A stretch of DNA of 64,000 bases, taken from NCBI RefSeq assembly GCF_900107195.1, contig NZ_FNPB01000007.1:1-64000 (forward strand), given 5' to 3'. Below, one piece after another: positions 21,348 to 62,300 of the stretch. The notes under the pieces are model-generated. The model was not told the DNA's origin. It saw only the letters and a list, made by a program, of their open reading frames with translations, and did no database searches. The DNA comes from Halobellus clavatus (lineage in GTDB: Archaea; Halobacteriota; Halobacteria; Halobacteriales; Haloferacaceae). The position numbers and the translations under genes are program-made. Each line of letters opens with the position of its first letter. The stretch's first letter is position 1.

Positions 21348-22610
21348 ATGGACGACACGCTACGACGTACGGTACGAATCAAACTCGACGTACCCAGAGA
21401 ACGTCGTGGCGATCTCCATCAGACCAAGACTCAATTCCTCCACTGCGCTAACCGAACGAGCGAGTGGGCGTGGCGGTACGACGACGACTGTATCACCAGC
21501 AAGAGCAGGGCCGAAGAGGCCCTGTATGACGAGTTGAGGGAGGAAACCGAGCTCACCGCTAACCTCGTTCAGAAAGGTATTCGTCGCGCTATCACAGCCG
21601 TCAGGGCCGGCGTCGAGAAATTGACGCAGGGCAAGAAGACCAGCCAACCAAAGTTCGACTCGTGGAGCATCGTGTACGACAAACGCTCCGCGACGTTCAA
21701 CGACGACCACGCTACCCTCTCGACGCCGAACGGAAGAGTCACCGCCGAATACGTTCTCCCACCTGAAAATCAGCGAGAGAACACGCCGTTCGGACGGTAC
21801 TACGAGAGTGACAACTGGAATACGTCAAGTGCCACGCTCCAATATGACGAGAACGAGGACACGTTCTACCTGCACGTTACGCTGAAAAATCCCGATTATG
21901 GGAGTGACGGACCGGAACGCGAAGAAAGCGAGTCATGTGATGATCTCCCCGAGAACGGAGTGGTTCTCGGCGTGGACTTGAACGTGACTGGCGCGTTCGT
22001 CGTCACCTCCACAGGCGAGTTCATTGGCAGTGCAGACTTCCTCACCCACAAGCGCGACCAATACGAGCAACGCCGCGGCTGCCTACAACAGACGGGTACT
22101 CGATCGGCCCACCTCACGATTCAATCTATTGGTAGTCAGTTCAGCGAGTGGTCATTAAACTGGCTCCACAACCAGGCCAACGACCTCATCGAGGAAGCCG
22201 GTGATGCGGATGTAGACGGGATTATTTTCGAGGACCTCACTCACATCCGCGAGAACATTGCGAACGGGAGCAAGTTCCAGCAGTGGGCCTACGCGAAGTT
22301 CGTGGAACTCGTTGAGTACAAGGTCGAATCTACTGATTTGTTCGTCGATTTCGTGAACCCAGCGTACACGAGCCAACGTTGCTCATATTGTGGGTGTACC
22401 CACGAGGATAATCGCGACGACAAGCAGTTCGAGTGCCGGTCATGTGGGTATGAGGTGAACGCTGATTACAACGCGGCGAAGAACATTGCAAACCGATACT
22501 GCAAGTATATCCATCGCGGGCAGAAGTCTCGCGGTGGATGGGCCACCAGTCAACTGGCCCTGAAGTCAGGGATGCTGAACGTGAATGGTGAATACAAGCC
22601 TTCCGCCTAG
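21348..22610 (+). CDS. tnpB: TnpB RNA-guided nuclease of an IS200/IS605-type element
   Basis: A 420-residue TnpB. RuvC residues are D210 (GVDLNVTG), E295 (IIFEDLTH) and D373 (NADYNAAKN). A four-Cys zinc finger, CSYCG ... CRSCG, lies between the last two, and an arginine-rich N-terminal domain precedes them. There is no tnpA transposase beside it, so the element is of the solo IS1341 type and would need TnpA from elsewhere. TnpB uses an RNA from the element's right end to cut target DNA and so helps element retention. GGTGA lies 8-12 nt before the ATG and may be a ribosome-binding site. Confidence 0.9.
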   Translation: MDDTLRRTVRIKLDVPRERRGDLHQTKTQFLHCANRTSEWAWRYDDDCITSKSRAEEALYDELREETELTANLVQKGIRRAITAVRAGVEKLTQGKKTSQPKFDSWSIVYDKRSATFNDDHATLSTPNGRVTAEYVLPPENQRENTPFGRYYESDNWNTSSATLQYDENEDTFYLHVTLKNPDYGSDGPEREESESCDDLPENGVVLGVDLNVTGAFVVTSTGEFIGSADFLTHKRDQYEQRRGCLQQTGTRSAHLTIQSIGSQFSEWSLNWLHNQANDLIEEAGDADVDGIIFEDLTHIRENIANGSKFQQWAYAKFVELVEYKVESTDLFVDFVNPAYTSQRCSYCGCTHEDNRDDKQFECRSCGYEVNADYNAAKNIANRYCKYIHRGQKSRGGWATSQLALKSGMLNVNGEYKPSA

Positions 22611-22640
22611 CGCGGATAGAGCGGGAGTCCACTGACAAGT
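22510..22640 (+). ncRNA. Candidate TnpB guide RNA (omega/reRNA) scaffold
   Basis: The 3-prime end of tnpB, beyond the last catalytic Asp, is packed with hairpins. These are a 9-bp stem 22510-22518 with 22530-22538 (one G-T pair), GGGCCA/TGGCCC (22540-22545 with 22555-22560), and the competing CCCTGA/TCAGGG (22558-22571). In TnpB elements the guide RNA overlaps the end of the gene and runs past the right end, where flanking DNA supplies the guide. The RNA end is not defined here because the IS right end is unclear. Confidence 0.45.
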
Positions 22641-22775
22641 CTCTGGGCTTGACCCGGAGACGGTTGACGAAGTGCCGCTTTCCCATACTGCCAAACCAGT
22701 ACGTCGTTCGCGACGGCGAAGTCCTCCACGCGGATCTCAGTTCCCTCGACCCGATCGACGAGTAGCGTTGTTCGT

Positions 22776-22795
22776 CCCCCGAGAGGGGTGCGGGG
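22776..22795 (+). promoter_or_regulatory. GGGT leader hairpin E
   Basis: CCCC(C)G pairs with CGGGG around AGAGGGGTG, preceded by GCGTTGTTCG. It ends 37 nt before the ATG at 22833. It shares GAGGGGTGCGGGG with leader D almost exactly, so these two may be recent copies. Confidence 0.55.
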
Positions 22796-22832
22796 CGATC
22801 CAGTCGCGGTCGCCCCGTGAGGTGATTGCTCG

Positions 22833-23522
22833 ATGGGACACCGCGCACTCGTTGCGTACGACCGCACAGACGGACAGTACACGCTCCACTACAGCCATTG
22901 GGGTGCAGCGAACCTGAAGCTCAAGCACCGAATCTCGGCTGAGTCGCCATTCGGTGGCGACGACACCGACTCCAAGTGGGCGAAACAGCTGCTGGCAGAA
23001 CTGGCCGATGGCCTCGAGGCAGATGCGGTCGACGGCTACCTCGCTGGCGAAAATCGACCGTCGACGGTCGTCGAGCCGAAGCCTCGTGCCACCGGGCTCA
23101 CCCTCGACGAGATCGTCGCTGACCATCTCGACTACCTCCACCACGAGGCGTTCTTCGTGGTGTCGACGACGTTCGAGGTGACCGCCTATCGGACGCTGTG
23201 GTTCGGGCTCCAGTACGACTCGGAGACAGTCGAACAGGGAGAGACGGTCGGGAACGGCGCGCTCGCGACGGTGCGCTGGTACGACGGCGAGCCGGTCGGC
23301 GACGGCCACCTGCAGGGCCAGTTCGCGGCCCTCAAAGACGTCGTCGGCGACATGCTCGACAAGGGCGTCTTTACGCCGTCGACGGCGAGACAGTACCTGA
23401 AACGGAAGCTCGCTGAGCGGGTCGGGGACCGACAGGAGCTGCTCATTCCAACCGGAGAGTCACCCTTTGAAACGGCCGGAGAGAGTCATCAGCAACTACG
23501 GGATAACAACGTAGGAACGTGA
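22833..23522 (+). CDS. DUF6735-like plasmid protein
   Basis: A 229-residue protein beginning MGHRALVAYDRTDGQYTLHYSHWG, which matches my memory of the haloarchaeal family DUF6735. Residues 60-190 alternate strands and helices (FFVVSTTFEVTAYRTLWFGL, ALATVRWYDGEPVGDGHLQG). The C-terminus is a basic/acidic helix pair. It has no catalytic motif I can name. It is preceded by GGGT leader E, and the histidine kinase cluster begins after it on the opposite strand. Confidence 0.65.
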   Translation: MGHRALVAYDRTDGQYTLHYSHWGAANLKLKHRISAESPFGGDDTDSKWAKQLLAELADGLEADAVDGYLAGENRPSTVVEPKPRATGLTLDEIVADHLDYLHHEAFFVVSTTFEVTAYRTLWFGLQYDSETVEQGETVGNGALATVRWYDGEPVGDGHLQGQFAALKDVVGDMLDKGVFTPSTARQYLKRKLAERVGDRQELLIPTGESPFETAGESHQQLRDNNVGT

Positions 23523-23558
23523 GACACCGACTCAGTAGGATTCTTTCATAACGGACAG

Positions 23559-24557
23559 CTACTGGGTCACGCCTGAAATTTCGAACCGGGGCCCACCAGC
23601 TTGGCTTTCCTTGACTGTGATCTCCCAGCCGTGTGTCTCTACGATTTGTTCGACAATACTTAGCCCGAACCCGGTGCCGTCTGTAGCCGTCGAATAGCCC
23701 GCGTCGAAGATTGCCATCATATCGTCCTCCGGAATCCCCTCGCCATCGTCCGCAATATAGAACCCATAATCGAGATCTCCAACGGTTATCGTGACGTCAC
23801 TACCACCGTGTTCGACAGCGTTGCGCATCAGGTTCTCGAACAGCTGCTGGAGTTGGTCACGGTCGCCATGAACAGTACGGTCGGTCTCGATTTTGAGTGA
23901 CGCATTTTGTGTTACCACCGTCTCCCAACAGGTCTCCACAAGCGTCTCTAGTTCGACTGCTTCTCGCTCCATCGCTGCATCACCATCTTGAGCGAGGGTC
24001 AGCAGATCCTCAATCAGTGCGTCCATCCGATTCAGCGCACGCTCAATGTCTTCAATATGCTCGCTGTCACAGTCTTCTTTGAGGAGTTCTAATCGACCTT
24101 CAGCAACTTGTAGTGGGTTTCGGAGATCATGGCTTACGACACTAGTGAACCGATCCAACCGTTCGTTTTGCTGCCTGAGTCTTTCTTCCCGTTCCTGCTG
24201 GTCGGTGATGTCACGGTCCATCGCCACGAATCGATCGTCTCCGTCCAAATCTAAGCGGATGAGATGAATCTCGATCGGGAATATCGATCCGTCCTTCCGT
24301 TTGAGCTTCCCTTCGAATCGTCGCGGTGTTTCCGTCGAGAGGTCCGTCCAGAAGGATTTCGCCTCCGAGGGCTCAACTGTCGGATCCAGTTCCCAGACTC
24401 GTTTCCCAATCAGTTCCGACTCCGTGTAGCCCAGCTCATCACACATCCGCTCATTCACGTCGCGAATAACGCCGTCTGAATCGTGGATAGCGATGAGATC
24501 AGGAGACTTCTCGAATAGTGCCTCAAGCTGTGCTTCTCGTGAGGAAGACGGGGTCAT
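23559..24557 (-). CDS. PAS-domain histidine kinase
   Basis: A 332-residue soluble sensor kinase. A PAS domain (about 8-118) is followed by a HisKA helix pair with the phospho-accepting H143 (VVSHDLRNPLQ). A HATPase domain has the N box NLMRNAVEHGG, G1 DDGEGIPEDD and G2 GTGFGLSIVEQI. No membrane segment is present, so it senses a cytoplasmic signal or acts on another kinase. The start ATG overlaps the stop of the upstream LOV kinase gene by 4 nt; the two kinases are cotranscribed and probably work together. No response regulator gene adjoins. Confidence 0.85.
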   Translation of the reverse strand: MTPSSSREAQLEALFEKSPDLIAIHDSDGVIRDVNERMCDELGYTESELIGKRVWELDPTVEPSEAKSFWTDLSTETPRRFEGKLKRKDGSIFPIEIHLIRLDLDGDDRFVAMDRDITDQQEREERLRQQNERLDRFTSVVSHDLRNPLQVAEGRLELLKEDCDSEHIEDIERALNRMDALIEDLLTLAQDGDAAMEREAVELETLVETCWETVVTQNASLKIETDRTVHGDRDQLQQLFENLMRNAVEHGGSDVTITVGDLDYGFYIADDGEGIPEDDMMAIFDAGYSTATDGTGFGLSIVEQIVETHGWEITVKESQAGGPRFEISGVTQ

Positions 24558-26341
24558 TGCGGCTCTGCAATCCCAGTAAATTCGAATCGAGCACCACCAG
24601 CCTCGCTTTCGTCGATCGTAACTTCCCAGCCGTGTGCTAAGGCGATCTGTTTGATGCTCACCATTCCGAAGCCGGTTCCATCTTCTTTCGTCGTGAATCC
24701 TGGCTTGAAGACATCATCACGTTCACTCTCAGGGATTCCGGGACCATCGTCCTCGTAGTAGAAGCCATCTGCGAGCGTCCCGACTCGCATTGCCGTTCCG
24801 TCGCCTGCGTGTTCGACGGTGTTTTTCACAAGGTTGTCAGCCAGCCTAACGAGGGCATGCTCGTCGGCTAAGATCGGTTTCGAATCGAGAACATCGAGCG
24901 ATTCCGGGTTAGTCTCAAAAGCGTCCCACGACCGGAACACGTCGCCGAGTTCCACCGGCTCGACCTCGGTTACCAGGTCGCCCTGTTGCATCACATTCGC
25001 CAGATCGTCAACGAGGGCCTCAAGGCGGTCGGCCGCATCGACCGCATCGTCCAATCGGTCCGTGTCGTCCAGTTCCTGCGCGAGTTCGAGATTCCCTTGA
25101 ATGACTGAGAGGGGCGTCTTCAAGTCATGGGAGAGGACATGGCCGAATTCCCCGAGCCAGTCGAGCTGTGATTCGATATCTTCCGTGTGCGCCCGTCGGT
25201 CGGAGATCTCACGCTGGAAGCCGACAAAGTTCGTGATATCGCCGGTTTCGTCCGCAATAGGGAATATTTCGAGCAGGTTCCAGAACGGGTTACCGTCCGC
25301 GTCGTAGTTGAGAATGTCCGTCGAAATCGACTCACCGGTATCGACGGCCTCTCGGATGGCAGCCACAGTGTCGGGGTTCGTATCCTCACCTTGTAGGAAT
25401 CGGCAATTCCGACCCAACACCTCCTCTTCGTCGTAGCCAGTCAGTTCCTCGAACCCTTCGTTCAGGTAGATGATCGGGTTATCCTCTTGAGATGCGTCGG
25501 TGATGACGACCCCGAGACCGGTTGCATCAAGCGCCCGATTCTTCAACGCGAGTTCAGCCTCGAGTTCGTCGTTCTGATCGAGTTCTTGAACGATACAGAC
25601 GTGGCCACCACTGTCCATCTGGGTGAGGACCAGACGCTCAGGGACAGGGTCACCCTGCTTGGTGACACCGGTCGAGACGCCGCGCCAGGCTCCCGTCGTT
25701 TCGAGCTCTGGAAGGATCTCATCGTGGAAGCGCTCAGTCTCCTCTGGCGGGTATAACATATCCCAGTGCTCCCCGACTAGCTCGGCGCGGTCACGGTTGT
25801 ATACGCCAGCATAGGCCTCGTTCATATATTGGTAGACGCCGTCCTCGTCGATGATACCGATCCCCTCTTCGGCGGATTCAATGGCTAGAAACCCCCGCTG
25901 GACTTGCGTCTCCGCCCAGTATTTCTCGACGAGATTTTCAATCTTATTCGCGAGGACGGGGTATTCCTCCGTTCCCCCTTTCTGCAAGTACTCGTCGACA
26001 CCAGCGGTGATAGCTTGACTGGCAATTTCCTCGCTTCCCTTCCCTGTGAACAGGACGAACGGGATCTCGACTCCGTCTTCACGAAGCTTGGTGAGTAGTT
26101 CTAAGCCGTCCAAACGTGGCATATCGAAGTCGCTCACGATACAGTCATAGTTCCCATCATCAACCTCATCGAGAACAGCTTCCGGATCAGTAAGCGTCGT
26201 CGTCTCGATATTGTCGATTTCTCGCTCCAGGAAGACCGAGGACATATCGACGAGAGACTCATCATCATCAACGAGTAGCACCGACATAAGACGATGATCG
26301 AGATTAAACGGAGCCATCTCACTCAGCGGGGAGGTTGCCAT
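24554..26341 (-). CDS. REC-PAS-LOV hybrid histidine kinase
   Basis: A 595-residue protein. The ATG at 26341 is preferred over a longer frame because TTTATAAT is centred 26 nt upstream. Domains: REC (about 20-140, D71 in SDFDMP); PAS (145-255); LOV (about 270-385) with GRNCRFLQG, where C313 (codon 25403-25405) is the flavin-adduct cysteine; HisKA with H405 (VLSHDLKTPLS); HATPase. The LOV domain also has the flavin-contacting Asn residues (ILNYDADGNPFWN) and Gln (VGFQREI). It could therefore sense blue light through FMN. It is cotranscribed with the kinase at 23559. Confidence 0.85.
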   Translation of the reverse strand: MATSPLSEMAPFNLDHRLMSVLLVDDDESLVDMSSVFLEREIDNIETTTLTDPEAVLDEVDDGNYDCIVSDFDMPRLDGLELLTKLREDGVEIPFVLFTGKGSEEIASQAITAGVDEYLQKGGTEEYPVLANKIENLVEKYWAETQVQRGFLAIESAEEGIGIIDEDGVYQYMNEAYAGVYNRDRAELVGEHWDMLYPPEETERFHDEILPELETTGAWRGVSTGVTKQGDPVPERLVLTQMDSGGHVCIVQELDQNDELEAELALKNRALDATGLGVVITDASQEDNPIIYLNEGFEELTGYDEEEVLGRNCRFLQGEDTNPDTVAAIREAVDTGESISTDILNYDADGNPFWNLLEIFPIADETGDITNFVGFQREISDRRAHTEDIESQLDWLGEFGHVLSHDLKTPLSVIQGNLELAQELDDTDRLDDAVDAADRLEALVDDLANVMQQGDLVTEVEPVELGDVFRSWDAFETNPESLDVLDSKPILADEHALVRLADNLVKNTVEHAGDGTAMRVGTLADGFYYEDDGPGIPESERDDVFKPGFTTKEDGTGFGMVSIKQIALAHGWEVTIDESEAGGARFEFTGIAEPQ

Positions 26342-26362
26342 ACGACAAACACTTCGGCGCAA

Positions 26363-26373
26363 CATTATAAATT
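26363..26373 (-). promoter_or_regulatory. TATA box of the LOV kinase operon
   Basis: On the minus strand TTTATAAT is centred about 26 nt upstream of the ATG at 26341. This is the expected spacing for a leaderless start and marks the beginning of the two-kinase operon. Confidence 0.6.
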
Positions 26374-26481
26374 AAATCCACGAGTATTGGGCATCCACCG
26401 CTATATTAAACGTAGATAGTAAGCGAATAAGAAGGGTAGTTCAGGATAACCTCTTTCAAGCTCTGCTTAAAATAGCCTGAC

Positions 26482-28644
26482 ATGGCTGACTCTATTCGGG
26501 TCCTTCATATCGATGATGAGCCGGATTTTGCGAGTCTCACTGCCGATTTCCTAGAACGAGAGAGCGGCTATTTTGACGTGGAAACGGAGACGCACGCTAC
26601 GAAGGGGCTGGAGCGGATACGAAGCGAGGATCTCGATTGTGTCGTCTCAGATCACGATATGCCCTCAATGACAGGGATCGAGTTGCTCGAATCAGTACGT
26701 GACGAGTACCCTGATCTTCCGTTTATTCTCTTTACTGGGAAGGGCTCAGAGGAGGTTGCGAGCGACGCCATTTCGGCCGGGGTCACGGACTACCTACAAA
26801 AAGAGGGTGGCACAGAGCAGTACACGTTGCTCGCAAATCGAATCGAAAATGCTGTCGAACGCCAGCAGTCACAACGAGCCGTCAAAGAGCAAAAACGGCG
26901 GCTCGAAACAATCATAAGCAACGTTCCGGGCCTTATCTACAGATGTCGAAACGAGCCAGGATGGCCGATGGACGAGGTCGCCGGCGAGTGCGAGGAGCTC
27001 GCCGGTTACTCTCCTGGAACAATCGAATCGGGGGGCGTCTCGTGGGGCGAGGACGTTATCCATCCGGACGACCAAGAAGAGGTCTGGGATGAGGTCCAGG
27101 CAGCGCTCCAAGAGGGTGTGCCGTTTGAACTCACGTATCGAATCGAAACAGCTGACGGGCAGACCAAATGGGTGTGGGAGCGCGGCCGAAACGTCACGGA
27201 TTCCGATGGTGAGGTTATTGCGCTTGAAGGATTCATCACAGACATAACAGAGTCGAAACGCCGTGAGCGTCGCTTTGAAGCAATTTTCAATAACACCTAT
27301 CAATTCACAGGGCTCCTCAAACCGGACGGAACGATCATCGAGGCAAACGAGGCAGCGCTTTCGTTTGCCGGCATCGATCGGAACGAGGTCGTCGGAAAGC
27401 CGCTGTGGGAAGGGAAGTGGTTCGAATCAAGCCAGCAAGCGAAAGATGTTGCCCGTGAAGCAGTTGAGACGGCACAGAACGGCGAGTTATTCCGGGACGA
27501 AATCAAAATCCAGGGCGCCAATGAAGAGGCCTTCGTCGACTTCTCCGTTCGACCGGTAACCAACGACGACGGCGATGTCACATTACTTATTCCAGAAGGG
27601 CGTAACATATCCGAATTAAAGGAGCGTGAACAGACTTTGCGCGAGCAGGAACACCAATTTGAGGCGATTTTTAACGATCCAAACCTCCTCGTCGGTCTTC
27701 TTGACACCGACGGCACAGTTGAAGACATAAACGAAATAGCGCTCGAGTACGTCGACGCATCACGAGAAGATATCGTCGGCAACCCGTTCTGGGAAACGCC
27801 TTGGTGGACCGACGATTATCGAGCGGCGGTCAAACAGTGGGTCGCTGAGGCAGCCGACGGAGAGTACGTCGAGTACGAGGCAGATCACCCGACAGAAGAC
27901 GGTGGAAAGGCCACTGTCGAGGGGAATTTCCGACCGGTTACTGACGATGACGGAACTGCCTCCCGTATCATCGTCTCCGCGAAAGACGTCACACAACGAC
28001 GGCGCCGAGAACGCGAATTGAAACGACGCAACGAGCAGTTCGATGAATTCGCGAGTTTCGTTTCACACGACCTCCAAAGCCCGGTTTCAACGGTTCAAGG
28101 ACGTTTGGAATTAGCTCTTCAGACAGGAGAGATGGAACACGTCGAAAAGGCAGCTGAGGCGATCGACCGCGTCGACGAGTTACGCGATGATCTCGTGACG
28201 ACGCTTCGAACGGGAGAAATCGTTTCGGGAACGGAGCGCATCGAGTTGGAATCCGTGCTGGACGACGTTTGGACTGCGGTCGATCCGCCACAGACCGCCT
28301 CAGTAACGGTCGAAGAAGGGACACGGATCGAGGCAGACACCGATGCCCTCCAACGGATGCTCGAGAACCTCGTGGGCAATTCAATCGAACACGGTCCCGA
28401 CGACGTTACAATTCAAATAGGAGAATTCGAATCCGGGTTCTATTACGAGGATAGCGGTCCCGGTATCGACCCCGAACTTCGGGACCGGATTTTCACACCG
28501 GGGTTCTCGACGAAGAACGGAGAAGAAGGTATCGGGATGGGGATGGCAAGTGTTCGTCAAATCGTGCTCGCCCACGGGTGGGAAATTCATATCAAAGGTG
28601 GAAAGCACCTTGATGGAGTCCGATTCGAAATCACCGACTCGTAG
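26482..28644 (+). CDS. REC-PAS-PAS-PAS hybrid histidine kinase
   Basis: A 720-residue kinase. The N-terminal REC has acidic pocket DDE near residue 11, D57 in SDHDMP, and the conserved Lys in FTGKG. Three PAS domains follow (about 140-255, 256-370, 380-500); the second and third share an LWEGKW or FWETPWW motif. HisKA has H529 (FVSHDLQSPVS), and the HATPase has NLVGNSIEHG and a Gly-rich lid (GIGMGMASVRQI). It is divergent from the LOV kinase operon and has the same REC-first design, so the two are probably paralogues. No membrane segments are present. The split kinase gene follows 98 bp downstream. Confidence 0.85.
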   Translation: MADSIRVLHIDDEPDFASLTADFLERESGYFDVETETHATKGLERIRSEDLDCVVSDHDMPSMTGIELLESVRDEYPDLPFILFTGKGSEEVASDAISAGVTDYLQKEGGTEQYTLLANRIENAVERQQSQRAVKEQKRRLETIISNVPGLIYRCRNEPGWPMDEVAGECEELAGYSPGTIESGGVSWGEDVIHPDDQEEVWDEVQAALQEGVPFELTYRIETADGQTKWVWERGRNVTDSDGEVIALEGFITDITESKRRERRFEAIFNNTYQFTGLLKPDGTIIEANEAALSFAGIDRNEVVGKPLWEGKWFESSQQAKDVAREAVETAQNGELFRDEIKIQGANEEAFVDFSVRPVTNDDGDVTLLIPEGRNISELKEREQTLREQEHQFEAIFNDPNLLVGLLDTDGTVEDINEIALEYVDASREDIVGNPFWETPWWTDDYRAAVKQWVAEAADGEYVEYEADHPTEDGGKATVEGNFRPVTDDDGTASRIIVSAKDVTQRRRRERELKRRNEQFDEFASFVSHDLQSPVSTVQGRLELALQTGEMEHVEKAAEAIDRVDELRDDLVTTLRTGEIVSGTERIELESVLDDVWTAVDPPQTASVTVEEGTRIEADTDALQRMLENLVGNSIEHGPDDVTIQIGEFESGFYYEDSGPGIDPELRDRIFTPGFSTKNGEEGIGMGMASVRQIVLAHGWEIHIKGGKHLDGVRFEITDS

Positions 28645-29486
28645 TCCTCGGCGGATCTCCATTTTGGGTCAAAGGCAAATCCCACGAAGAGAACAACAAT
28701 GTGAACAAGCGTTAACCGGGAACCACTATTAGGAAACTGAAGATGGAATCTCCTCCTCCGCTTGTCAACGGCGACGATTTCTATCAGACGCTTGTAGAAA
28801 ACGCAGCCGAGGGGATGCTAACAATCGATGAACAGAGCAATATCGTTTATGCGAATCCGGCTGTTAAGGATATTCTCGGGTATTCTCCTGACGAATTGAT
28901 CGGAAGTTCTAAAATGAAAATCATTCCAGAGCGTCTAGAACCCGTCCATTCCGCAGCTCTTGAATCATATGTTGACTCTGGTGAGCGAAATATCGACTGG
29001 GACGGGATAGAACTCCCCGCGCTTCACAAGGACGGACACGAGGTTCCAACGCTGATCAGTCTTCGTGAACACGAACACGACGGTGATCGGTATTTTACGG
29101 GCATCATTCGAGACATCACGGAGCGACGGAGACGGGAGAACCAGCTACAGGATCAGAAAGAACGGTTGGACGAGTTTGCTGACATTCTCACACACGACAT
29201 CCGAAATCCACTCTCTGTTGCCCAAGGCTACACCGAAATCGCTCAAGAGAACCACGAGAGTCCGGAACTAAAGAAAGTCTCAGAGTCGTTATCTCGGATA
29301 GATGATCTGGTAGAGGATGTCCTGGAACTGTCCAAGGCGGGTCGCTCGATTGGTGAAACAGAGTCAATTGATGTTGAAGACTGCATCTACGAATCATGGG
29401 ATAGCGTTGAAACCCGCCGGGCTACGTTACGGGTCGACGATGAACTCGGGTCAATAACTGCGGATAAGAGCCGCTTCCAAGAGCTG

Positions 29487-30177
29487 GGTCGCGTTAAGTT
29501 TGGCGTGAATTGTGGTAGACTGCGAGGGCTTCGAGCCAATCTTGAGCTGTCTCGAACGCGACATTACTGAAACTATTCGCAAACGATGATGTTCGTCGTT
29601 CTATTTCCCAAAAGACACGTTCGATGGCATTCCGATTTCCATGTCGAATAACTTGAAATCGATAGCCGTCTTCAGCGAGGACTGAGCCGAGATAATCTGC
29701 ATCATCGACGAGAAATTCGACGTTGTTTAGCTGATAGCGCCGGTGTAGCTCGGTGAGAAACCATCGCGTCGTCTGTTTGTTTGCGGTCGGATAGAGACTT
29801 ACGTGAAGGATCTCGTTCGTCTGTGGATCAACCGCGCCGTACAGCCAGAACTTCTGTCCGTGGAGGCGGATCATCTTTTCGTCAACCGCGAGTTGATCCT
29901 CTGAGACGGTCGAGATCGGCTGTAGATCGGCTTTATGAACCCAGTTATGGATAGCGACGTGACTCCGATCGATCCCGAACTTTTCGAGATGCTTACTTAC
30001 CTCACGCAGTGACATACCGGCCAAATGACAGCGGATCCCTACTTCAATCGCCCAGCGCGGTGTTCGATCTCGCTCCACAAACGACAAGTCGATCCACGCG
30101 ATACGTTCGCTGAGGCGGTCGAATTCTGCCATAGACACTCAGAACTCGTCCGCCTCATCCTCTAACTTAACGCGACC
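29487..30177 (-). mobile_element. IS6-family (ISH15-like) insertion sequence
   Basis: A 691-bp element bounded by perfect terminal inverted repeats starting GGTCGCGTTAAGTT at both ends and flanked by an 8-bp target duplication AAGAGCTG (29479-29486 and 30178-30185). It contains one transposase gene on the minus strand that fills almost the whole element. Size, end structure and 8-bp duplication fit the IS6/IS240 group, which transposes by cointegrate formation. Confidence 0.9.
29494..30138 (-). CDS. IS6-family transposase
   Basis: A 214-residue DDE transposase. An N-terminal HTH (MSLREVSKHLEKFGIDRSHVAIHNWVHK) precedes the catalytic core: D in LAVDEKMIRLHG with the adjacent WLYGAVD strand, D in FLVDDADYLG, and E in RNAIERVFWEIERRTSSF. 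The length and the GAVD ... NAIERVFWEIERR pattern are typical of haloarchaeal IS6 (ISH14/ISH15) enzymes. A start two codons later (MAEFDRL) is equally possible. The gene is intact, so the insertion may be recent. Confidence 0.9.
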   Translation of the reverse strand: MSMAEFDRLSERIAWIDLSFVERDRTPRWAIEVGIRCHLAGMSLREVSKHLEKFGIDRSHVAIHNWVHKADLQPISTVSEDQLAVDEKMIRLHGQKFWLYGAVDPQTNEILHVSLYPTANKQTTRWFLTELHRRYQLNNVEFLVDDADYLGSVLAEDGYRFQVIRHGNRNAIERVFWEIERRTSSFANSFSNVAFETAQDWLEALAVYHNSRQT

Positions 30178-31905: not shown

Positions 31906-32577
31906 TCACACTTCCATATGCTCCTCGACGAACCAGTGGATGATGTGGCCCTCCGCTCGGTGCAACACGTCGCTACACGTCGCGTTCGCGATGTCGAGTG
32001 CCGCAGCCACCTCGCCTAATGTCGATTCCCGTGGTGTCCGGTAGTAGCCTGCTTCGACAGCAGCCAGAAGCACCTCTTGCTGTCGGTCCGTGAGCAACTG
32101 GTCTGCTTGGCTCGCGTCGATTTCGCGAACAGATTCGATCGTGAAGCCGATGCCTAAATCCTCGAGGTGATCGCCGAGGCTCGAGAGTCGCCTCGTCGAT
32201 GTCGTCACCTCCCACGTAGCGACACCGTTCTGAATATCGAAGGGCATTCTGAGTGGAACACCGGCTCGCAGGACCGGGAGAAGTGGAAGTGGGTTCACCG
32301 TCTTTATTTGGAGGAGCGCCTCGTCTTCGTGCTTCCAGAGTAGCTCGAGGTCCTCGATGTCGTCACGGGATTGAATGTCGGTAATGAGTGGAAGTGGGTC
32401 AGCGGTCTTGAGCCTGACAAGCCCGATACCGGTCCCTTCGCCAGGAATACTCGTGACGACTTGAAACACCACCTCCGGATGAGCAGCCGAGAGATCTCCG
32501 ATCCAGGTATGGTCGGGGATATCTATGGAAAGTTTCGCGTGTGGCATCGTCTGTAGCGTACCTACTATTTCGCTCAT
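31906..32577 (-). CDS. HTH_10 (bacterio-opsin-activator-type) regulator
   Basis: A 223-residue regulator. The N-terminal 150 residues are a sensor-like alpha/beta domain with no cysteines or PAS signature. The last 60 residues are the HTH_10 module (LLTDRQQEVLLAAVEAGYY, TLGEVAAALDIANATCSDVLHRAEGHII). The start may be 32577 or 32547 (MPHAKLSID); no clear TATA spacing decides it. It sits between the convergent FmdE-like gene and the divergent RND exporter and may regulate the latter. Confidence 0.75.
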   Translation of the reverse strand: MSEIVGTLQTMPHAKLSIDIPDHTWIGDLSAAHPEVVFQVVTSIPGEGTGIGLVRLKTADPLPLITDIQSRDDIEDLELLWKHEDEALLQIKTVNPLPLLPVLRAGVPLRMPFDIQNGVATWEVTTSTRRLSSLGDHLEDLGIGFTIESVREIDASQADQLLTDRQQEVLLAAVEAGYYRTPRESTLGEVAAALDIANATCSDVLHRAEGHIIHWFVEEHMEV

Positions 32578-47211: not shown

Positions 47212-50200
47212 CTAGGACATCTGCCCGGGTGCGGCTAAACCCAGATTACGGTTTGCTGACGACGTCGGAACGCGAAGCACAACTTCGGTACCTGTGTCGG
47301 TCACGTCGACGTCGATCTCCCCGCCGAGTACCGAGACTAACATCCGAATCAGCCAGATCCCGAGCCCAGAACCGTGCTGTAACGGCGTCTCTTCGCCGGT
47401 GACGAGTACCTCCCGCTCGATATCTGGCATGCCAGGCCCGTCGTCGGCCACGACGATCTGGAGCCAGCCGTTGTCGACCTGTCTCACCGATACGTTGACG
47501 TACGGGTCTTCTCGGTCTCCTGCGGCCACCGCGTTCTTTATCACCTCGGTAACTGGGTGTGTAAGCCATCGTGAGACTGTCTCGTCGGTCGCGTCGACAG
47601 AGACAGCGATCGTTGCGTCCGAGTGGTCATCTCGTACCGCCGTTGCGGCCGTTTCAGTGACCTCAGCGATGTTAACGCTCGACTCGTCGTGTGGTATCTC
47701 CCGTATCGCGCGATCGATCACCTGCATTTTGTTCGTAAGTCGTTCCCATCCGTCGAATATACGCGTCAGTCGGCGGAGATGATCTTGACGACAGTCAGCG
47801 TCCGGTTCCTCGGCGAGCATCGTTGTCCATCCCACGAGCTTGTTTAAATCGTTGCGGACGTTGTGTCGGACGACCCGCTGGAACACTTGTAAATGCTGTC
47901 GCTGTCGCGTCTTCACGGTGATATCCTTCCCCTCAACGGCGATCAGCGTGATTTCACCAGCGGCGTTACGAATCGGCTTGAACGATACGTCGATGCGTGC
48001 GAGACCATCTGGACCCTGTAGTTCTCCTTCGGTCTGGACGAGTTCACCGTCACCCGCGCGGTTGACCGCCTCACAAACCGTGAGTCCGTGGTTCGGATCA
48101 AGGTTCAGCCACGGGAATTTGTCGATTGGTTCACCAACTATAGTCGACCGATCCACACCGATGCGTGTAACCAGCGTATCGTTCACGTCAGTCACGATTT
48201 TATTGGGGCGGACTAACGCGGTAAACTGGTGCGGGCTGTTAAACACTGCCTCCAGTCGCCGAGTGTACTTCTCGCGTTCAGAGATATCGATGAACAGCAC
48301 ATCGGTACCTACGACTTCGTCGTCGACGGTGCGCGGGATCGCCCGTAACAGACACGGGACCGTGTCGCCGTCCGTCGTCACGAGCGTGCGTTCCGCAACG
48401 GTAAGATCGCCGCTAAGCGCGCGTTCGTAGCCGTCTGTTTGGAGCGAATCGGCCGAGGTATCGTCGTAAAACTCACTGAGCGGCTGTCCAACCACCGCTT
48501 CGCGCTCGTACCCCAGCGCGTCGGAAAACGACCGGTCACAGGCCTCAATGACTGCTTCGCCGCCAACGGCCCGAGTTTGAACGAACAGCAGCGGGCCCTG
48601 ATCAAACAGTTTCGACGCCCATTTCACACGCTCGGAGCGCTTCGTCGCGTCTCGCCCCATCGCCAGCACACTGGCAGAGCCATCACCCGCATCACTCACA
48701 ACGGTGTGTAGATCTATCCACGTGACTTCGCTGTCATCCGTCCCGATTCGTATCGTCTCAGCAGCCGGGTCACCGGTCTCGATCGGGCGCCGCAGGGCGT
48801 CAGCGGCACGTTCGCGGTCCTCCGGATAAACTACTGCTTGCCATTCGTCTATCGTCGTCGGGCTCGCTCCGACCGTCTCTCGTAAAGTGGCGTCCAACGT
48901 GACTGTGTTGGTACTGAAGTCCCACTCACCGATGCCCGTCTCCGTCCCGCTGAGGACGAGTTCCAGCCGCTCAGTCTGGTTTCTGAGCTCTCTGATCCGC
49001 CGTCGTTGCTCGGTAATATCGTGTTGAACCCCGATGTAGTTTGTCACGATTCCGTTTGCGTCTCGAACCGGCGTCACGGAGAGCTTCGCCCAGTACGGTT
49101 CACCCCCCGCGGTGTAGTTTCTCAGCTTAGTTGTTATCGGTCGCTCGGTTTCGATCGCCGTACGGATTCGCTTTGTCGTCTCCGAATCTGATCCGGGGCC
49201 CTGGAGGAATCTCGGGTTTCGGCCGAGAGCCTCTGACCGCTCGTATCCGGTTAGCTGTACAAATTCCTCGTTAACGTACACCAACGGGTTCCCCGGTTGG
49301 GTTGGGTCCGTAATCTGGATGCTGGTCCCTGCTTCGTCCAGCGCCCGCTCTTTTAATGCGAGTTCGTGTTCCCGTGCTTCACGATCGCTCACGTCACGCA
49401 CCGTACAGACCATTCGGGATGGGGTGACCATCGTCAGGGACAGCTCCGCCGGGAACGTCGTTCCATCTGGCCGACTTCCCGTTACTCGCCCCTGCCAGTG
49501 ACCATCGCGTTCGAGCGCGTCGAAAGCTTCCTTCTCGATCCGTGCCGCTTCATCCGCAGCGTATAGCTCCCGCCAACTTCGACCGAGTAGCTCCTGTTTG
49601 CTGTCGAATCCGTACATATCGACGTGCGTCTGGTCGATATAGACGTACGCCTCGTCGTCAAGGATGGCGACGCCATCGGCGGCGTCCTCGATCGCCTGTT
49701 GAAACGCACCGAGGCGAATATCCGAGGCGATCTCGCCTGTCGGGTCACGGGTCTGGGAGCTAATACGGTCGAGTGCCGCGGCGAGTGACCCTGCTGCTCG
49801 CTCGAGAACATCACGGACAGCGGCCTCGTCCAACGCGGTCGCGAGATCGTGGTGATCCCAGCCAACCGATAGCACACGCTCGGAATCGATCGGAACGAAA
49901 AGTTCCTGACGCGGAAGCCAGCGGTTATCATCCGGTGCGATTGGTCCGGCCACCCCGTCAGTTCGAACCGGCGCATCAGCCGTGAAACATCGCTTGATTA
50001 GAGCTGCGTCTGGTGAAGGGATTCGAGCCGACCGACCCGTATGGCGTTCGGAACCGAACAACGGTGGGGACGGCTGTTCCGGCGATTGGGCATTCTCGGG
50101 GTTACTACCATGCTCGTTGCGGTTTCGCCACACGGTAATAACTGTGTCCCCCAGTGTGGTACGGACCGCAGTCAGTGTCCGATCAATAGCGCCACCTACT

Positions 50201-59370: not shown

Positions 59371-62300
59371 ATGAGCGATGGAGACGCGTACACGGAACAT
59401 ACCCCCGCGGGACTTCTCGAATTGTCTTCGGAACTGAATCAAGCTGGTTCTATCGAGGACATCTCTGTCGTTGCTGTCCGAATGTTGGATCTCAATTTTG
59501 ATGCGCCTCTTTCGGCGATCTGGGAGTACGATGAGCAGGAAAACGAACTCTGCCCAATCGCCGAATCAACTGAGGCACAAGAGGTGATCGGCGATGCACC
59601 TATCCTTCCACCTGACTCTCTCGCCGGACGTGTGTACAGACAGAACCGTCCGGAAGTGTTCGACGATGTCCACGAGGCCGATGGCACGTATAATTCAGAC
59701 ACCCCGATTCGGAGCGAAATTATTGTGCCAATTTCAGATTTCGGCGTCTTGAGTGTCGGAGCTACTGAACTCAATGCCTTTACTCAGAAAGACGCAGAAC
59801 TGGCGAAAATCGTCGCCTCGAATCTCGAACCTGCAATTTCACAAATCCGACACCTCGAGGAGTTACAGGCTGAGCGTGATTGGACACACACGTTGTTTGA
59901 AGGCTCCAACGATGCCATTTTCATTAGTGATTCAGATGCGAATTTCGTCCAAGTGAATCAGGCTGCTTGCCAGTTAACTGGCTATGAGCGAGAGGAACTC
60001 CTCTCGATGCGTATTCCCGATCTTCACGAAGAGGTCGACTTACATGCCTATCAGGATTACCACGACCAAATTTTAGCCGGCGAACCAGCAACCACTGACG
60101 CAAAACTGCTTCGGAGCGACGACAGTAAAATCGATGTCGAGTTCTCGAACCGTCGGATCAAGCGCGATGGGGCGGCCTATATGCATACCGTGGCGAGAGA
60201 TGTGACGGAACAGCGGGAACGCCAGCGTCGCCTAGAGTCGTTTAAGTCGGCCATCGAGAACGCGAGTGATGGGATTGCTATTTTGGAGAACGAGGAGTAC
60301 ACGTACGTTGATCAAACGCATGCCGAAATGTACGGGTTCGAGGACCAAGATGAGTTACTGGGGCAGACTTGGCGTGATTTGTATACTGATGCCGTTGAAA
60401 TCGAGCGCATAGAGGATGAGGCGCTTTCAGCGCTCCGATCTGATGGAGAGTGGAGAGGCACTGTAACTGCATCTCCAGAAGGCAAGAGAGAATTCCCGAC
60501 CGAACTATCGCTGACACGCTTGGAAGACGATCGAATCGTCTGTGTTGTCCGTGACGTGTCTGAAAAATATCGGCGTCAAGCGGAACTTCGGGAGAATGAG
60601 CGGCGTTTCGAGTCGGTGTTCGAAGACCCCGAAATGCTGGTGGCGTTATTAGAAACTGATGGTGAGACGATTGAGGTCAATGAAACAGCGCTAAACTACG
60701 TTTCGAACGACAAATCCGATATCTTGGGGGAACCGTTCTGGGAAGGAGACTGGTGGTCGCATTCCTCGGACCTACAAGAAGATCTAAAAAACTGGATCGA
60801 ACGAGCGGCTGCTGGCGAGTATGTTAGTTTCCAGGCTGAACATCCGGATCAGGACGGTGACAGTCGGTTCATGACGGGCACAATCCGTCCGGTTACAGGG
60901 GAATCTGGAGTCGAATCGCTCGTCATTTCTAGCCGTGATATTACTCCCCGTGAGCGACGACGTCGCGAGTTAGAGACGTTCCAGCAGGCTGTCGAGGATG
61001 CGAAAGACGGCTTCGCTATTCTTGAGGATGGAGAATACACCTACATCGACGACACACACGTGGATATGTATGGATTCGATGGTACTGACCAACTCCTCGG
61101 GGACTCTTGGCGGATGCTCTATGACGAAGATGAGGTAGAGCGTCTTGAGTCGGAAGCCTTCCCTGTTCTTGAGTCGGAGGGCCACTGGCGGGGTAAGGTA
61201 ACCGGATCCCGACCGGACGGGACCACATTCCCGGCTGATCTCTCTCTGACCATCATCGATGAGGGCCCCCTCGTTTGTACTGTGCGCGATCAGACTGCAC
61301 AACGAGAACGGAAGCGCGAACTCGAACTCAAGGAGCAAGCGATTGACTCCTCGAATGTTGGGGTCATGATCACCGACCCACAGCGAGAAGACAACCCGAT
61401 CGAGTACGTAAATAAAGGATTCACCGACATTACTGGCTACCAGGAGGACGACGCCTTAGGTCGTAATCCACGTTTCCTCCAGGGACCCGAGACAGACCCA
61501 GACGAAATATCGAAGCTTCGAGAGGCGATTGCGGCCGGTGAACCGGTAACGGTAGAATTGAAAAACTACCGAAAAGACGGGAGTGAATACTGGAATCGAT
61601 TGTCTGTCACGCCAGTCACTGATGCAGATGGGACGCTTTCGAAGTTTATTGGCATACAGCAGGACGTAACAGGTCGGAGGCAACGGACTCGGAGCCTGGC
61701 AGAACAAAACCGGAAACTCGAATTGGTTCTTTCTGGAACGGACACTGGTATTGCAGAGTGGAGTCTTGAGACGGATCAGATATCATTCGACGACACGCTT
61801 GTCGATTTACTTGGCCATGATCCGGACAACTATGAAGAGTTCGTACAGATCGTCGCGCCGGAAGATCGGGACCGTGTTCGTGATTCACTAGAACGAGTCG
61901 GCGATATCAACGACTTGTCTGCGGATTTCAGAGTTATTGATGCCAACGAACAAACGCGATGGATACACACAGATGCTGTTCTGATACCCGATGACGAAAC
62001 TGGAGAGAGACTTGTCGCGATTGCCACGGACATAACGGATCAAAAACGACGGATTCGGCAGATTCAACAGGAGCGGAAGCGATTCGAGATCCTCTCGGAA
62101 AGTCTCGAAGAATACGCCTTTGTACTTCTCGATGACGATGGACAGATCGACAGCTGGAACGATGGAGCAGCCGACATCTTTGGATATGACGAAGAAACTG
62201 CAATTGGTATGCCAGCAGCAGAGTTACACCCTGAACAGGATCAAAAACGTGGGATTGCTGATCGGTTATTAAAACAGGCATCACTCGCAGGAGAAAGTAC

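Follow-up and report, generated by a model that had tools for sequence, protein, structure and literature searches.

A predicted LOV histidine kinase and an overlapping second kinase gene at a probably plasmid-borne locus of Halobellus clavatus

We analyzed a 64,000-nucleotide stretch of the Halobellus clavatus genome (contig NZ_FNPB01000007.1, positions 1 to 64,000; hereafter the window), in which two overlapping reverse-strand genes, designated K1 and K2, encode histidine kinases and a third kinase gene diverges from them. The features concerned are given below, and the residue numbers used throughout for K1 (C321, N353, N363, Q384, H413 and others) refer to the 603-aa form of the protein, with its start at 26365.

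23559..24557, (-) strand: K2, a second kinase of PAS-HisKA-HATPase architecture, whose start codon overlaps the K1 stop
24554..26365, (-) strand: K1, the gene for a REC-PAS-LOV-HisKA-HATPase kinase with catalytic residues present (Pfam, NCBIfam and PDB matches)
25127..25213, (-) strand: predicted linker helix of K1, 29 residues from LOV Gln384 to the phospho-acceptor His413 (homologue linker lengths; model)
25187..25540, (-) strand: LOV domain of K1, residues ~276-393 (Pfam, NCBIfam and PDB matches; AlphaFold model)
25214..25309, (-) strand: FMN-contact stretch of K1, with N353 at 25307-25309, N363 at 25277-25279 and Q384 at 25214-25216
25388..25414, (-) strand: GRNCRFLQG motif of K1, with the adduct Cys codon at 25403-25405
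26482..28644, (+) strand: REC-PAS-PAS-PAS-HK kinase without a LOV motif, divergent from and upstream of K1 (Pfam); a signalling neighbour with a putative link to K1

The K1 protein comprises 603 aa when read from the start at 26365 and 595 aa from an alternative ATG at 26341, and its adduct cysteine is C321 or C313, respectively. Pfam searches assigned Response_reg to residues 29-130, PAS_4 to 163-251, PAS_9 to 286-389, HisKA to 405-455 and HATPase_c to 501-597, confirming the proposal of a first-pass annotation of this DNA that REC, PAS, LOV and kinase domains are combined in one protein. The receiver (Response_reg, 74 bits in Pfam) is complete, with the acidic pair D34/D35, the phospho-acceptor D79, T107 and K129. 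The kinase boxes are complete as well (H413 in the H box, N511/N515 in the N box, D539-G541-G543 in G1 and G565-G567 in G2), and the HisKA and HATPase_c matches both exceed the Pfam cut-off.

The GRNCRFLQG motif that the first-pass annotation had reported, with C313, in a kinase at 24554-26341 was located at 25388-25414, its cysteine bearing that number when counted from the 26341 start. The Asn and Gln residues that had been proposed to contact FMN are also present (N353, N363 and Q384) and line up with the two Asn and one Gln flavin-ring contacts of the LOV domain of YF1, but they fall outside the interval 25340-25560 to which the LOV site had been assigned, and which covers just the first part of the domain (about 25187-25540). 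The NCBIfam YtvA blue-light model matches residues 275-402 of K1 with an E of 6e-48, and the PDB entries that score best in a sequence search are YF1, a LOV kinase (4gcz, E 8.6e-44), and LOV domains, which argues that the LOV assignment is not due to chance. Although its LOV part matches, the whole protein scores below the curated NCBIfam equivalog cut-offs for YtvA_fam (NF052652; 163 bits against 250) and BluLightHisKinLov (NF052306; 138 bits against 450), and K1 is therefore not an orthologue of either. In an AlphaFold model built from ten homologues, the LOV fold of K1 is confident (pLDDT about 90-95), the best domain folds are LOV and the modelled domain lies within an rmsd of 0.6-1.5 A of single-LOV crystal structures, with the structures of EL346 and Brucella LOV-HK among the fold matches. 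Together, sequence, homologues and predicted structure strongly support the identity of K1 as a canonical LOV histidine kinase.

Among known systems, the best match to K1 in both sequence and fold is YF1, a fusion of the YtvA LOV domain to the FixL kinase in which, as in K1, the LOV domain is joined by a helix directly to HisKA-HATPase. YF1 differs from K1 in being engineered, in lacking REC and extra PAS domains, and in its Gln-to-His linker, which spans 38 residues as counted from the sequence alignment, versus 29 in K1. The bacterial LOV kinases LovK, EL346 and Brucella LOV-HK share with K1 the photochemical motif and a kinase output, but belong to other kinase families (HWE/HisKA2), whereas K1 has HisKA and an N-terminal receiver. 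In the Archaea, 167 LOV proteins had been catalogued in 82-85 species by 2014, with HTH outputs in ~30% of the halobacterial proteins and the remaining archaeal ones being kinases with RR, GAF and PAS modules (Losi et al. 2014, PMC4844311). More recently, 28 LOV sequences, mostly combining REC/PAS/GAF with kinases, were described from one lake metagenome, and the LOV domain of a Halonotius PAS histidine kinase was expressed and its photocycle measured, revealing photoactivity in 3 M salt (Valle et al. 2025, PMC12202551). These archaeal LOV histidine kinases, including ALovD-1 (PMC12202551), resemble K1 in presenting a canonical Cys-LOV within a haloarchaeal PAS/REC-containing kinase, and the overlapping second kinase gene sets K1 apart from them. 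Given these precedents, the at least five Cys-LOV domains encoded in the host genome and the identity of the locus to a deposited Halorientalis litorea plasmid, the suggestion that an archaeal LOV kinase would be notable in this setting does not hold. No characterization of K1 was found in the literature searched.

Near-orthologues of K1 in Halorubrum laminariae (82% identity), Haloparvum sedimenti (80%) and Haloarcula sp. JP-L23 (62%) all combine a Cys-LOV with a 29-residue linker, and the Cys-LOV motif, kept across 62-82% identity, is also found in the homologue from Halobacterium sp. KA-4 (81%), which consists of the REC-PAS-LOV half alone, without the kinase half. This stand-alone protein (L052:3986-5176) ends directly after LOV and is encoded beside divergent PAS kinase genes; it is possible that it constitutes a light-sensing adaptor acting in trans. 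The REC-PAS-LOV homologue of Haloferax sp. Q22 (L053:3917-5170) also occurs without a kinase, and in it Tyr replaces the adduct Cys (GRNYRFLSG). From these two proteins it follows that single-chain light-driven kinase output is not retained in every member of the family.

In the AlphaFold model, residues 388-432 of K1 form a single unbroken helix. Across six proteins, the linker between LOV and the phospho-acceptor His measures either 29 residues, as in the K1 near-orthologues, or 22, as in more distant LOV kinases, a difference of exactly one heptad. As counted in these six sequences, the 29- versus 22-residue spacing fits the coiled-coil relay with heptad periodicity described for LOV kinases (PMC6798134). 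Reading the sign of the light response from linker length was considered and rejected, because the phase of the K1 linker does not match that of YF1.

In view of these observations, K1 very probably functions in this haloarchaeon as a soluble receptor kinase for blue light. By analogy with the LOV family, FMN would occupy the LOV pocket, blue light would drive the formation of a covalent Cys-C4a flavin adduct, and Gln384 would re-orient in response. This change would be relayed along the continuous linker helix to the His413 region, shifting the kinase/phosphatase balance of K1. The N-terminal receiver and the PAS domain would feed in additional signals: probably, another kinase phosphorylates the receiver at Asp79 and so modulates this balance, and a ligand or redox state acts as well. 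K2 would be the likely partner kinase, putatively interacting with K1. The target of K1 would be a free-standing receiver protein encoded at another site in the genome. Pfam searches detected no adjacent cognate response regulator among the flanking genes scanned, and no receiver match in the HTH_10 protein at 31906-32577.

Coupling of K1 to a second kinase, also put forward in the first-pass annotation, is borne out at the level of the genes: the K1 stop and the K2 start share the sequence ATGA at 24554-24557, and the downstream open reading frame encodes a PAS-HisKA-HATPase protein. The kinase parts of K2 and K1 are 40% identical. The six closest homologues of K2 (55-65% identity) are C-terminal portions of longer genes, encoding REC-PAS(-LOV)-PAS-HK chains. 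Chains ending in a K2-type kinase carry a REC-PAS-LOV N-terminus in genome G025 and on contigs 43 and 54 of genome G002, the contig 54 gene being broken by a frameshift, and a REC-PAS N-terminus without a LOV motif in genomes G029, G018 and G054. K2-type kinases thus usually reside in one chain with a sensor of the K1 kind, which supports a functional link between K1 and K2 without proving contact. The frameshift in the gene on contig 54 of G002, a genome of the same genus, lies just ahead of the LOV glutamine (L047:5742-5781) and reflects either mutation or sequencing error.

Judged from these sequence relationships, the K1-K2 pair resembles a light-sensing kinase that has been split or rearranged, and K2 most likely arose from a REC-PAS-LOV-PAS-kinase chain and serves as a partner kinase. 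A fuller version, in which a former chain of this kind was rearranged into overlapping genes to yield a split two-kinase blue-light receptor, with interacting kinases and the light input of K1 gating K2, is tentative and on balance unlikely. A conserved K1-K2 operon was also considered and rejected, since no K2-type gene was found within the examined flanks of the Halorubrum laminariae and Haloparvum sedimenti near-orthologues; the pair is therefore known only from the present locus and its identical counterpart on the H. litorea plasmid. The novelty at the locus lies in the second kinase gene overlapping the end of K1, a small and mildly unusual variant. The locus contributes a complete, probably plasmid-borne member to a set of archaeal light receptors that have hardly been studied in physiological terms, and the kinase pair, set against the natural fused chains, offers a tractable case for the wiring of light input to kinase output in archaea; taken alone, the finding changes no picture.

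An alternative to K1 as a light receptor is that its LOV domain, although it binds flavin, responds chiefly to redox state or to flavin itself, with light playing an incidental part. This reading draws on the presence in the same genome of LOV-like domains with Pro for Cys and motifs otherwise largely kept, on the Tyr for Cys in the close homologue from Haloferax sp. Q22, and on the published finding that Cys-less LOV receptors can signal through flavin photoreduction (PMC4682037). K1 and most of its close homologues, however, retain the Cys together with the full set of FMN contacts, and we consider the sensor alternative quite improbable beside a blue-light receptor kinase. The Pro-type domains (GRNPRFLQG) within the window are located at 48997-49365 (-) and 61318-61689 (+), in large multi-PAS HATPase proteins, with a good part of the flavin-pocket motif otherwise preserved. 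Contig 19 of this genome encodes a third such domain, in tandem with a Cys-LOV, and Pro variants of LOV have also been found in Lake Diamante (PMC12202551). These Pro-type domains may respond to redox state instead of acting through adduct formation.

Positions 22000-29486 of the window are identical to plasmid unnamed3 of Halorientalis litorea ZY14 (NZ_CP095485.1), and the K1 locus is probably plasmid-borne. K1 and K2 are both intact in that plasmid. In its gene table, K1 is represented by its C-terminal portion alone, under the name 'HAMP domain-containing sensor histidine kinase'. Broken genes, as suggested by this patchy gene table, were rejected on account of the identical DNA and the intact open reading frames. 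A further alternative is that K1 and K2 are non-functional relics within a mobile part of the plasmid in which insertion sequences abound, as the interruption of a neighbouring kinase gene by an insertion sequence and the resemblance of K1 and K2 to pieces of fused genes might suggest. This alternative is highly improbable, given that both reading frames are open with intact catalytic residues, that the same intact pair is present in the H. litorea plasmid and that the LOV residues are kept in homologues at about 80% identity.

The interrupted gene, which starts at 28743 and encodes a PAS kinase, contains an IS6-type insertion sequence at 29487-30177 (691 bp), with 14-bp inverted ends GGTCGCGTTAAGTT and an 8-bp target duplication AAGAGCTG; the copy of this gene on the H. 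litorea plasmid is uninterrupted and encodes 340 aa. A gene for a TnpB-like RNA-guided endonuclease (21348-22610, (+) strand) adjoins the kinase cluster, and the H. litorea plasmid likewise has an annotated TnpB gene at the corresponding position.
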